A stretch of DNA of 64,000 nucleotides from an uncultured Clostridium sp. (GTDB lineage Bacteria; Bacillota; Clostridia; Lachnospirales; Lachnospiraceae). Under the pieces are notes generated by a model. It was not told the origin of the DNA, made no database searches, and worked only from the letters and a program-made list of their open reading frames with translations. Of this stretch, positions 18,233 to 22,946 are shown in pieces (positions within the stretch are counted from its first letter, which is position 1; the number at the start of each line of letters is the position of its first letter). The position numbers were made by a program, and so were the translations under genes. The DNA is taken from positions 1-64,000 of the forward strand of contig CAMEIH010000011.1 of NCBI GenBank assembly GCA_945917985.1. The letters are read 5' to 3'.

Positions 18233-18769
18233 ATGGCTACATGGAGTTCACGGGGGCTTCGAGGCTCTACCCTGGAGGATTTAATCAATCGAACAAACGA
18301 AAAATATCTAGAAAACGGTCTTGCCCTGATTCAGAAAATTCCGACGCCCATTACTCCCATCAATATTGATAAGCAGAGCAGGCATATTACCCTTGCTTAC
18401 TTTGATAAGAAGAGTACGGTGGATTATATCGGAGTTGTTCAGGGAATACCTGTCTGTTTTGATGCCAAGGAATGCGCTGTGGATACTTTTTCTCTTCAGA
18501 ACATTCATGAACATCAGGTTAACTTTATGGAAGAGTTCGAAAAGCAGAAGGGAATTGCCTTTTTTCTGATTTATTACACGCATAGAGATCTTTTTTACTA
18601 TCTTCCTTTTGAAATGCTGAAGTTCTTCTGGGACAGGGCAATGAGCGGAGGACGAAAAAGCTTTCGGATCGAAGAACTCAATCCGGATTATTATCTTCCT
18701 AAAAAAAACAGCATCTTAGTTCCTTATCTTGATATTTTAAGTAAAGATCTGGAAGACCGGGACTTTTGA
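18233..18769 (+). CDS. recU: Holliday junction resolvase RecU
   Basis: SSRGLRGSTLEDLINRTNEKYLENGLALIQKIPTPI, STVDYIGVVQGIPVCFDAKEC. Confidence 0.93.
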   Translation: MATWSSRGLRGSTLEDLINRTNEKYLENGLALIQKIPTPITPINIDKQSRHITLAYFDKKSTVDYIGVVQGIPVCFDAKECAVDTFSLQNIHEHQVNFMEEFEKQKGIAFFLIYYTHRDLFYYLPFEMLKFFWDRAMSGGRKSFRIEELNPDYYLPKKNSILVPYLDILSKDLEDRDF

Positions 18770-18778
18770 TAAAATAAT

Positions 18779-18807
18779 TTGACATTCCGAAAACTTTTCG
18801 TTATACT
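18779..18807 (+). promoter_or_regulatory. Sigma-A-type promoter for the his operon
   Basis: TTGACA (18779-18784), 17-bp spacer, TATACT (18802-18807). Confidence 0.85.
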
Positions 18808-18823
18808 GTCAATAGTTTTAAAC

Positions 18824-18837
18824 GCTACCATGGTAGC
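18824..18837. promoter_or_regulatory. Perfect 14-bp palindrome GCTACCATGGTAGC, candidate operator
   Basis: Located 16 bp downstream of the -10 hexamer and upstream of hisZ. Confidence 0.6.
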
Positions 18838-18885
18838 AAGGTAACACTGTGATGTGATAAAGTAATCAAGGAGCGTAAATTTTTT

Positions 18886-20007
18886 ATGAGTAAAAAACTG
18901 GTACATACTCCTGAGGGTGTACGCGACATATACGGCGAGGAATATTCCAAAAAACTGGCAACGGAAAGCCTGATCCACAGGCAGATCAATTTATATGGCT
19001 ATGAGGATATTCAGACACCGACGTTTGAATTTTTTGATGTCTTTTCCAAGGAAATCGGTACGACTCCCTCAAAGGAGCTATATAAATTCTTTGACAAGGA
19101 AGGAAATACGTTAGTGCTCAGGCCGGATTTTACCCCTTCCATGGCAAGATGTGCAGCCAAGTATTTTATGGATGAGGATGTACCGATTCGTTTCTGTTAT
19201 CTTGGCAATACCTTTACCAACACAAATAATCTGCAGGGAAAGCTAAAAGAAGTGACCCAGATGGGTGCAGAACTGATGGGAGACGGAAGCGTAGAGGCGG
19301 ACGGTGAGATGATTGCCATGGCCATAGAATCTCTGCTCTGTGCCGGATTAAAGGAATTTCAGCTCAGTATCGGTGAAATCGAATATTTTAAAGGACTCTG
19401 TGAACAGGCAGGACTTGATGAAGAGACAGAGCTTTCACTTCGCGAATTTATTTCCGGAAAGAACATCTTTGGCGCGGAGAATCTTCTTACGGAAAAGGGC
19501 ATTGACGAAAAACATCGTGAAATGCTTCTGAAAACCACCGAATGTTTCGGCTCTGTAGAATCTCTGTTAAATGCAAAGGAGATTGCTGATAATGAAAGAT
19601 CGGTTCATGCTATAGAAAGACTGGAAAAACTCTATCAGGTTCTCTGTGAATACGGTGTGGAGAAATATGTTTCTTTCGATCTTGGCATGCTGAGCAAATA
19701 TAATTATTATACGGGTGTTATCTTTAAAGTCTATACCTACGGCGTAGGCGATGCCATTTTAAAAGGGGGAAGATATGACAATCTTCTCGGCTATTTTGGA
19801 AAAAATGCACCTGCCATCGGTTTTGTCATTGTGATCGATGATCTGATGCAAGCCCTCAACAGACAGAAGGTTCCTGTTTACATCGATCATGAGGTGAAAA
19901 CACTGACTTATCATCATGACAATTATGAGAGTAAACTGGCTGAGGCAAAAGGACTTCGAAGAAATGGCATCAGAACTGTGCTGGTACCGGAGGATCAAAC
20001 AAAATGA
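18886..20007 (+). CDS. hisZ: ATP phosphoribosyltransferase regulatory subunit HisZ
   Basis: HisRS-like: TPEGVRDIYGEE, LRPDFTPSMARCAAKYF, GGRYDNLLGYFGKNAPAIGFV; upstream of short-form hisG. Confidence 0.93.
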   Translation: MSKKLVHTPEGVRDIYGEEYSKKLATESLIHRQINLYGYEDIQTPTFEFFDVFSKEIGTTPSKELYKFFDKEGNTLVLRPDFTPSMARCAAKYFMDEDVPIRFCYLGNTFTNTNNLQGKLKEVTQMGAELMGDGSVEADGEMIAMAIESLLCAGLKEFQLSIGEIEYFKGLCEQAGLDEETELSLREFISGKNIFGAENLLTEKGIDEKHREMLLKTTECFGSVESLLNAKEIADNERSVHAIERLEKLYQVLCEYGVEKYVSFDLGMLSKYNYYTGVIFKVYTYGVGDAILKGGRYDNLLGYFGKNAPAIGFVIVIDDLMQALNRQKVPVYIDHEVKTLTYHHDNYESKLAEAKGLRRNGIRTVLVPEDQTK

Positions 20008-20648
20008 GCAATGATAGATATTTGACCTTTGCTCTTGGGAAGGGCAGACTTGCCAATAAAACCCTGGAGCTTTTAGAACAGATTGGGATTACCTGTGAGG
20101 AAATGAAGGATAAGGATTCCAGAAAACTGATTTTTGTCAACGAGGATCTAAAGCTTAGATTTTTTCTCGCCAAAGGGCCCGATGTTCCCACTTACGTGGA
20201 ATACGGTGCTGCCGATATCGGTGTGGTCGGAAGTGATACTATCATGGAGGAGAACAGAAGAGTTTATGAGGTTCTTGATCTGGGCTTTGGCAAATGCAGG
20301 ATGTGCGTGTGCGGTCCCGAATCGGCAAGAGAGCTCCTGAAGCATCACGAAATGATCCGTGTGGCAAGCAAGTATCCCAATATCGCAAAGGATTATTTTT
20401 ACAACAAAAAGCATCAGACGGTTGATATCATTAAGTTAAATGGTTCCGTGGAATTAGGTCCCATCGTCGGACTTTCGGACGTGATTGTAGATATCGTGGA
20501 AACCGGTTCCACCTTGCGTGAGAACGGATTGCAGGTTCTTGAAGAAATCTGTCCCTTATCTGCCAGAATGATCGTAAATCAGGTCAGCATGCAGATGGAG
20601 ACAGAAAGAATCCGCAGTCTGATCAGCAGACTGAAGGAGCTGTGTTAA
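20004..20648 (+). CDS. hisG: ATP phosphoribosyltransferase, short form HisG
   Basis: FALGKGRLANKTLELL, AADIGVVGSDTI, DVIVDIVETGSTLRENGL; 214 aa, lacking the long-form regulatory domain. Confidence 0.96.
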   Translation: MSNDRYLTFALGKGRLANKTLELLEQIGITCEEMKDKDSRKLIFVNEDLKLRFFLAKGPDVPTYVEYGAADIGVVGSDTIMEENRRVYEVLDLGFGKCRMCVCGPESARELLKHHEMIRVASKYPNIAKDYFYNKKHQTVDIIKLNGSVELGPIVGLSDVIVDIVETGSTLRENGLQVLEEICPLSARMIVNQVSMQMETERIRSLISRLKELC

Positions 20649-20687
20649 GGTGATATTATGGAATAGGAACAGAAAGGATAAGATGAA

Positions 20688-21986
20688 ATGCGCATTATTA
20701 ATTTAAATGAAGACTCCAAAAACACATTGCTGGAACAGCTGATCAAAAGGAGTCCGCAAAGTTACGGACAATATGAGCAGACAGTCAATGAAATTATTGA
20801 AAATGTAAAAGAAAACAGAGATAAGGCTCTGTTTGACTATACAATGAAGTTTGATCACTGTTCCCTTACCGCCGAAACCATTCAGGTTACCCGGGAAGAG
20901 ATTGAGGAAGCTTACACAAAGGTTAATCCTGATCTTGTAGAGGTCATGAAAAAATCAGCTGCCAATATCACAAAATTCCATCAAAAACAGCTACACAACA
21001 GCTGGATCGCACCGGAGGAAGACGGAACCATTTTAGGTCAGAAAATTCTTCCCATCGAGATCTCCGGTGTCTATGTTCCCGGCGGTAAGGCTGCTTATCC
21101 TTCCAGTGTCCTTATGAACGTGCTTCCCGCAAAGGTTGCCGGTGTGAAACGAATTATTATGACAACACCTCCCGGAAAGGACGGTAAAGTAAATCCAGGA
21201 ACGCTTGTTGCCGCTGACATTGCAGGGGTGAATGAGATCTATAAGGTTGGCGGTGCCCAGGCAATCGCCGCCATGGCTTTTGGAACGGAGAGTATTCCCA
21301 AGGTGGACAAGATTACCGGCCCCGGCAATATTTTTGTTGCCCTTGCCAAAAAGGCATGCTTTGGTTTTGTCAGCATTGATTCCATTGCAGGTCCCAGTGA
21401 AATCCTGGTACTTGCAGATGAAACTGCTAATCCCAGATATGTTGCAGCAGATCTGCTTTCCCAGGCTGAACATGATGAGCTGGCCAGCGCCATTCTTATT
21501 ACCACCAGCAGAGAGCTTGCAGAAAAAGTTTCAGTAGAAGTCGAGAATTTTACAAAAGAACTGTCAAGGGAACAGATCATCCGGTCATCTCTCGACAATT
21601 ACGGCAATATTTTTGTGGCTGAGACAATGGATGAAGCCATTACGGCTGCCAATGAGATTGCTTCCGAACATCTGGAGATTTTAACTGTCAATCCTTTTGA
21701 AACCATGACAAAGATTAAAAATGCAGGTGCAATTTTCCTGGGTGAATATTCTTCCGAACCGCTGGGAGATTATTTTGCGGGGCCCAACCACATTTTACCG
21801 ACTAACGGAACTGCAAAATTCTTCTCACCTTTAAATGTAGATGATTTCATGAAGAAGACAAGCATCATCTCTTACTCAAAGGATGCCCTTAAGAAAGTAC
21901 ATAAGGATATTGAGCTGTTTGCCAAAGAGGAAGGCCTGACTGCTCATGCAAACTCCATTAAAGTCAGATTTGAAAACGAAAGGTAA
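20688..21986 (+). CDS. hisD: Histidinol dehydrogenase
   Basis: GVYVPGGKAAYPSSVLMN, GGAQAIAAMAFGTESIPKVDKITGPGN, AEHDELASAILIT, NHILPTNGTAKFFSPL. Confidence 0.97.
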   Translation: MRIINLNEDSKNTLLEQLIKRSPQSYGQYEQTVNEIIENVKENRDKALFDYTMKFDHCSLTAETIQVTREEIEEAYTKVNPDLVEVMKKSAANITKFHQKQLHNSWIAPEEDGTILGQKILPIEISGVYVPGGKAAYPSSVLMNVLPAKVAGVKRIIMTTPPGKDGKVNPGTLVAADIAGVNEIYKVGGAQAIAAMAFGTESIPKVDKITGPGNIFVALAKKACFGFVSIDSIAGPSEILVLADETANPRYVAADLLSQAEHDELASAILITTSRELAEKVSVEVENFTKELSREQIIRSSLDNYGNIFVAETMDEAITAANEIASEHLEILTVNPFETMTKIKNAGAIFLGEYSSEPLGDYFAGPNHILPTNGTAKFFSPLNVDDFMKKTSIISYSKDALKKVHKDIELFAKEEGLTAHANSIKVRFENER

Positions 21987-21997
21987 AGGTAGTTTAT

Positions 21998-22585
21998 ATG
22001 AGCCGTAGTGCAACCGTAACAAGAACCACAAAAGAAACAGATATTTCCATGACATTTACCATCGACGGAACAGGGACAAGTCATATTGATACCGGCATCG
22101 GTTTTTTTAACCACATGCTGGAAGGCTTCGCAAAGCATGGTTTTTTTGATCTTGATCTTTCTATAAAGGGCGATTTGCAGGTGGATGGCCATCACACGGT
22201 AGAGGATGCCGGAATCGTACTTGGAACCGCCATCAAAGAAGCCGTTGGAGACAAGGCAGGAATCAAGAGATATGGTTCCTTTATTCTGCCCATGGACGAT
22301 GCGCTTGCTCTCTGTGCGGTAGATCTGTGCGGAAGACCCTACCTTGCCTTTGACTGTAATTTTACAACAGAGAGAGTGGGTTATCTGGAAACCGAGCTTG
22401 TGCGGGAATTCTTTTATGCAGTGTCCTACGCAGCTGGTATGAATCTGCATATCAAAATGCTTTCCGGCATCAACAATCATCACATGATCGAAGCCATGTT
22501 CAAGGCTTTTGCCAAGGCGCTTGACGCGGCCACATCCAAGGATGAAAGAATAAAGGATGTATTAAGTACGAAAGGCAGCTTATAA
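21998..22585 (+). CDS. hisB: Imidazoleglycerol-phosphate dehydratase
   Basis: IDTGIGFFNHMLEGFAKHGFFDL, DGHHTVEDAGIVLGTAI, GINNHHMIEAMFKAFAKAL. Confidence 0.97.
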   Translation: MSRSATVTRTTKETDISMTFTIDGTGTSHIDTGIGFFNHMLEGFAKHGFFDLDLSIKGDLQVDGHHTVEDAGIVLGTAIKEAVGDKAGIKRYGSFILPMDDALALCAVDLCGRPYLAFDCNFTTERVGYLETELVREFFYAVSYAAGMNLHIKMLSGINNHHMIEAMFKAFAKALDAATSKDERIKDVLSTKGSL

Positions 22586-22586
22586 G

Positions 22587-22946
22587 ATGAGTGAAAAGGT
22601 AACCATCATTCCCGGTCTTAAAAATTATATTCCGTGGAAAGATCTCAAAAAAAATTCCGACGGTCATGTAACGGTAGTTGTCCAGGATCATAAAACACTT
22701 CAGGTCCTGATGGTGGCTTACATGAACGAGGAAGCCTACGAGATGACCTTAAAGACAAAACGCATGACTTATTTCAGCAGGAGCAGGAGTGAACTTTGGA
22801 TCAAAGGGGACACAAGCGGTCATTACCAGTATGTGAAAGAACTGATTGCCGACTGCGACAAAGACACTTTGCTTGCCAAGGTAGAACAGGCAGGCGCCGC
22901 ATGCCATACCGGAAGCTACAGCTGTTTTTTCAATGAAATCATGTAA
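22587..22946 (+). CDS. hisI: Phosphoribosyl-AMP cyclohydrolase
   Basis: VAYMNEEAYEMTLKTKRMTYFSRSRSELWIKGDTSGHYQYV, DKDTLLAKVEQAGAACHTGSYSCFF; no HisE domain fused. Confidence 0.96.
   Translation: MSEKVTIIPGLKNYIPWKDLKKNSDGHVTVVVQDHKTLQVLMVAYMNEEAYEMTLKTKRMTYFSRSRSELWIKGDTSGHYQYVKELIADCDKDTLLAKVEQAGAACHTGSYSCFFNEIM

Follow-up and report, generated by a model that had tools for sequence, protein, structure and literature searches.

A putative extended HisR operator with half-sites every 8 bp in front of the hisZGDBI operon of an uncultured Clostridium sp.

The window analyzed here, a stretch of 64,000 nucleotides at the start of contig CAMEIH010000011.1 from an uncultured Clostridium sp. of the Lachnospiraceae, carries the histidine operon hisZGDBI on its forward strand. 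The first gene of the regulated operon is hisZ (18886–20007; TIGR00443), and the remainder, spanning 20004–22946, consists of hisG (20004–20648), hisD (20688–21986), hisB (21998–22585) and hisI (22587–22946). On the 5' side a recU-like gene ends at 18769, and the entire control region is 116 bp long. As described in the original prediction, this region contains a sigma-70-type promoter (18779–18807, forward strand), with TTGACA at 18779–18784, a 17-bp spacer and TATACT at 18802–18807, followed 16 bp past the -10 element by a perfect 14-bp palindrome, GCTACCATGGTAGC (18824–18837). The claim that the leader contains no T-box-like structure was also confirmed, as an Rfam search of the leader gave no T-box and no other match. 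When a plasmid collection was searched with the region, no match was found.

The original prediction took the palindrome for a repressor operator and named a YerC/HisR (TrpR-family) protein as the hypothetical regulator. According to the main text of PMC9413887, HisR (YerC), of the TrpR family, represses his operons in many members of the Firmicutes; its sites follow the consensus cacTTTAnnnnnnTAAAgtg, with the core box ACTTTA-N6-TAAAGT, and its operator is a single 20-bp palindrome; HisR of R. gnavus binds an ACTTTA-type box together with histidine, and does not bind without it. We found such a box, ACTGTGATGTGATAAAGT, at 18846–18863 (20-mer 18845–18864), with two mismatches to the published core. 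The left half of this box (18846–18851) reads ACTGTG instead of ACTTTA in this genome, in its closest kin and in several relatives, and the variant recurs in other genera too (loci L193 and L221). The palindrome, as GCTA-N6-TAGC, and the HisR box, as TTTA-N6-TAAA, have an identical 4-6-4 geometry with two TA steps 8 bp apart, and, measured from center to center, the palindrome precedes the box by exactly 24 bp (3 x 8). When offsets are counted from the first step of the box, the palindrome supplies TA at 18826 (offset -24) and at 18834 (offset -16), a third TA at 18842–18843 (offset -8) bridges the palindrome and the box, and the box itself supplies TG at 18850 (offset 0) and TA at 18858 (offset +8). 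The whole putative operator array (18824–18863) thus reads TA, TA, TA, TG, TA every 8 bp, between about +10 and +50 on the predicted transcript, and this spaced pattern was found nowhere else in the window. Since perfect 14-bp palindromes occur four times in the window, as compared with about four expected by chance (64000/4^7), GCTACCATGGTAGC by itself is weak evidence; the feature of the palindrome that exceeds chance is its register with the HisR box.

The HisR regulon is represented in this genome by a YerC/HisR protein, a box before the his operon and a box before hisR, in agreement with the regulator that had been hypothesized and with the published HisR control of his genes (PMC9413887, main text). 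The protein, encoded on contig C60 (15971–16222), matched TIGR02531 (E = 3e-43; 146 bits, cut-off 42) and PF01371 (E = 1.1e-32), and, among PDB structures, 3frw (3e-45) and 3g1c (7e-42). The box before its gene reads ACTTTAATATGTTAAAAT; an autoregulatory hisR box is reported for about half of genomes in the main text of PMC9413887.

The conservation of the array was examined in hisZ upstream regions taken from two sets, one of 80 related contigs and one of 38 genomes within the genus. Nearly all of the collected regions contain a HisR box just 3' of the palindrome position, with 0–1 mismatches in 53 of 81. In 73 regions anchored on the box, TA was present at -24 in 54, at -16 in 60, at -8 in 64, at 0 in 66 and at +8 in 57, and there was no slippage, as TA one base to either side of the steps occurred in only 0–3 of the 73 loci. 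The TATA of the -10 element also lies at a fixed distance from the box in the relatives (TA at -48 in 47/73 and at -46 in 49/73 loci). After removal of redundancy at 80% identity, 47 Lachnospiraceae loci remained, of which 33 had TA at -24, 38 at -16 and 42 at -8, against a background of 5.3% at other offsets; at least two of these three upstream steps were present in 40/47. As a control, the best box-like match within the hisZ coding sequence was examined at each of these loci, and no phasing was seen around it.

The phasing was found beyond the Lachnospiraceae as well. Among 33 non-redundant loci of the same order but other families, TA occurred at -8 in 24, at -16 in 20 and at -24 in 15, and among 42 loci from 24 families of other orders of Clostridia at -8 in 35, at -16 in 23 and at +16 in 20, with a background of 10%. 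The direction in which the array extends, upstream or downstream, varies between families, but the register of 8 is maintained; in one family (f17), TA is present at +16 in 8/8 loci and at -24 in 0/8. Because these loci share descent, binomial values overstate their independence and are descriptive only; the arrays nonetheless recur in more than 30 families. As in operators of the TrpR type, the half-site elements with a period of 8 bp extend beyond the site of one dimer.

The symmetry of the palindrome behaved differently from its register. It had been expected that the palindrome is kept before hisZ in relatives, but of 69 divergent regions upstream of hisZ, only 2 had a perfect palindrome at this site and 10 had GCTA-N6-TAGC; in the closest relative, whose HisZ is 97% identical, the site reads GCTACCATGGTAGT and the perfect palindrome is lost. 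The conserved part is the two TA steps. Similarly, the genome scan for palindrome-like sites at other his loci, which had been proposed as a check, returned none: GCTACCATGGTAGC at zero mismatches occurs once in the 2.9-Mb assembly, and the seven other sites with up to two mismatches are all within coding sequence. The palindrome was therefore rejected as a regulon-wide motif. The idea of a repressor operator held in part, in that a putative operator does occupy the initial transcribed region; the palindrome, however, is not supported as a self-sufficient operator and is not the known HisR box, but forms one end of an array.

Arrays of this kind were also present before hisR. In 30 hisR loci of the genus, TA was found at -8 in 24, at 0 in 30, at +8 in 28 and at +16 in 20. 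An unbiased scan of the 38 genomes of the genus with the four-step pattern TA-N6-TA-N6-TA-N6-TAAAGT gave totals at background level, with recurrent orthologous matches before hisZ and hisR, and recovered this genome's own hisR array.

The E. coli aroH and trp operators, ACTAGAGAACTAGTGCATTAG and ACTAGTTAACTAG, whose sequences we confirmed in E. coli genomes, show a comparable design, with CTAG elements, and hence TA steps, 8 bp apart. According to the title of Kumamoto 1987, TrpR has several binding sites in both aroH and trp; the title of Lawson and Carey 1993 describes a tandem crystal complex of TrpR (1TRR); both are cited in PMC7518442 and PMC9031032. The his array resembles the TrpR operators of trpEDCBA and aroH in its elements with a central TA spaced by 8 bp, in its several putative repressor sites per operator, in the homologous repressor fold and in the use of an end-product amino acid as co-repressor. 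It differs from them in its recognition flanks, in its predicted co-repressor histidine, in its position downstream of the -10 element within the initial transcribed region, and in that tandem binding is a prediction for HisR. The CTAG/GNACT recognition elements of TrpR were not found in the his array, whose HisR elements are TAAAGTG- and TAGC-like. By analogy, the his array may work like a TrpR operator but is not one.

Since HisR is homologous to TrpR and the operators share the same 8-bp period, we infer that HisR-His stacks in tandem. Our preferred reading, to which we assign a probability of roughly 0.75, is that 18824–18863 is an extended HisR operator with half-sites every 8 bp, on which HisR-His dimers would stack in tandem and repress hisZGDBI. 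Two features of the window speak against it, namely the TG in place of TA at 18850 and the two mismatches in the box. In addition, the flanks of the half-sites differ (TAAAGTG in the box, TAGC in the palindrome), and the upstream units could be of low affinity or serve another ligand.

One alternative explanation is that a single HisR dimer sits at the box, the other TA steps being relics, or else weak decoys that raise the local HisR concentration without a stacked complex. This would be in keeping with the in vitro test of R. gnavus HisR, which covered a single box only (PMC9413887, main text), and with the E. coli trpR operator, which takes one TrpR (PMC7518442). We consider it improbable: TA(-8) and TA(-16) are kept at 80–90% in Lachnospiraceae and also in the majority of the other families that were examined, which would be difficult to account for if they were relics. 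It is also improbable that only the 20-bp box (18845–18864) binds HisR while the palindrome serves as operator for a different, unrelated repressor acting with HisR. Leaders can contain a further symmetric site for another factor, and the palindrome unit is indeed GCTA/TAGC and not TTTA/TAAA. However, its spacing to the box is exactly three times 8 bp and does not slip, conservation is higher at the TA between the two (-8) than at the palindrome, whose arms vary independently, the palindrome stands at no other promoter in the genome, and in other families the array runs the opposite way, with TA at +16.

That the perfect palindrome is a functionless chance feature appears very unlikely. Its perfection may well be due to chance, considering the four such palindromes in the window and the two perfect cases among the 69 relatives, yet its TA steps are in conserved register in most relatives. 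An RNA hairpin in the 5' leader (an attenuator, an anti-terminator or a translational control element) in place of a DNA operator is the least probable of all, as the 5-bp stem with a CAUG loop that the RNA could form, to go by its sequence, is accompanied by no covariation of the arms (over 69 loci, Watson-Crick counts for six arm pairs were about those of independent columns, e.g., 32 vs. 30.7 and 27 vs. 25.5 expected), by folding no better than that of shuffled leaders (z of -1.2 in the window and -0.1 to 0.2 in three relatives), by no Rfam match and by no terminator in the leader.

In the extended operator that we prefer, each adjacent pair of TA steps could seat one HisR dimer, because the published box and the palindrome are both two TA steps 8 bp apart. 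When histidine is ample, HisR-His would occupy the strong box (18846–18863) first, after which additional dimers would line up in tandem on its upstream side, each shifted by 8 bp, as far as the palindrome unit. The predicted stack would extend from about +10 to +50 on the transcript, as a roadblock that prevents RNA polymerase from escaping the promoter. In the absence of histidine, the stack would dissociate and hisZGDBI would be transcribed.

A genome-wide scan with the box at two mismatches gave 151 sites, as compared with 377 for a reversed control, and was thus swamped by chance matches. The genes hisH and hisF are clustered on their own, directly behind an unrelated gene (L267:1841–3223, contig C19). 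Only one HisA-like gene was found (L268:564–1334, contig C75); it belongs to the eukaryotic type, scoring 336 bits against TIGR02129, which is above the cut-off, and lies far from the remaining his genes. Neither hisH-hisF nor this hisA-like gene has a HisR box within two mismatches, so that the candidate HisR targets in this genome are hisZGDBI and hisR; a part of the his pathway, hisH-hisF, seems to lie outside HisR control. ATTTTAGCACTTTAAAGT, a HisR-like box accompanied by additional TA steps in phase, also occurs before an aldolase-like gene (L117, about 1501; contig C1:73794) and may be due to chance.

In 9 of the 38 genomes of the genus, we noticed a TauC/SsuC-like ABC transporter operon with a permease, an ATPase and a binding protein (e.g., L262:1556–2326). 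A phased array, ACTTTAGYGTGNTANNGTGATAAA, directly follows the -10 element in 7/7 readable loci (L270–L274, L276 and L277), with G as its first base in one of them. The transporter was not found in the window's own assembly. To judge by sequence, it is possibly a new HisR target, which is not named in the main text of PMC9413887. In a broader form, HisR operators across Clostridia would be 8-bp-phased arrays of 3–6 TA steps with histidine-dependent stacking, in which the number of steps would set the sensitivity of his repression and the same rule would expose new targets, such as the TauC-like transporter; we put the odds of this generalization at about even.

As compared with the HisR regulon described in the main text of PMC9413887, the regulator family, the targets (his operon and hisR) and the core box ACTTTA-N6-TAAAGT are the same; the difference is that the 20-bp box here belongs, as a single unit, to an array with a phase of 8 bp and as many as about six TA steps. 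In other Firmicutes lineages, his operons are controlled by a T-box or an attenuator (PMC9413887, main text), which act on the same target genes, whereas no RNA element is found here. HisR control of his genes has been published, and we found no multi-unit phased architecture in the texts covered, among them the main text of PMC9413887, so that it may have been noticed earlier. HisR sites may be better modeled as period-8 arrays than with a 20-bp matrix, and this view would account for weak or degenerate boxes, such as the window's own. Taken together, these results link a little-studied histidine repressor of Gram-positive bacteria to the classic mode of tandem binding known from TrpR, and suggest that the stacking mode is old in the TrpR family and may provide a rule for the HisR operators of Clostridia, including those of many gut bacteria.
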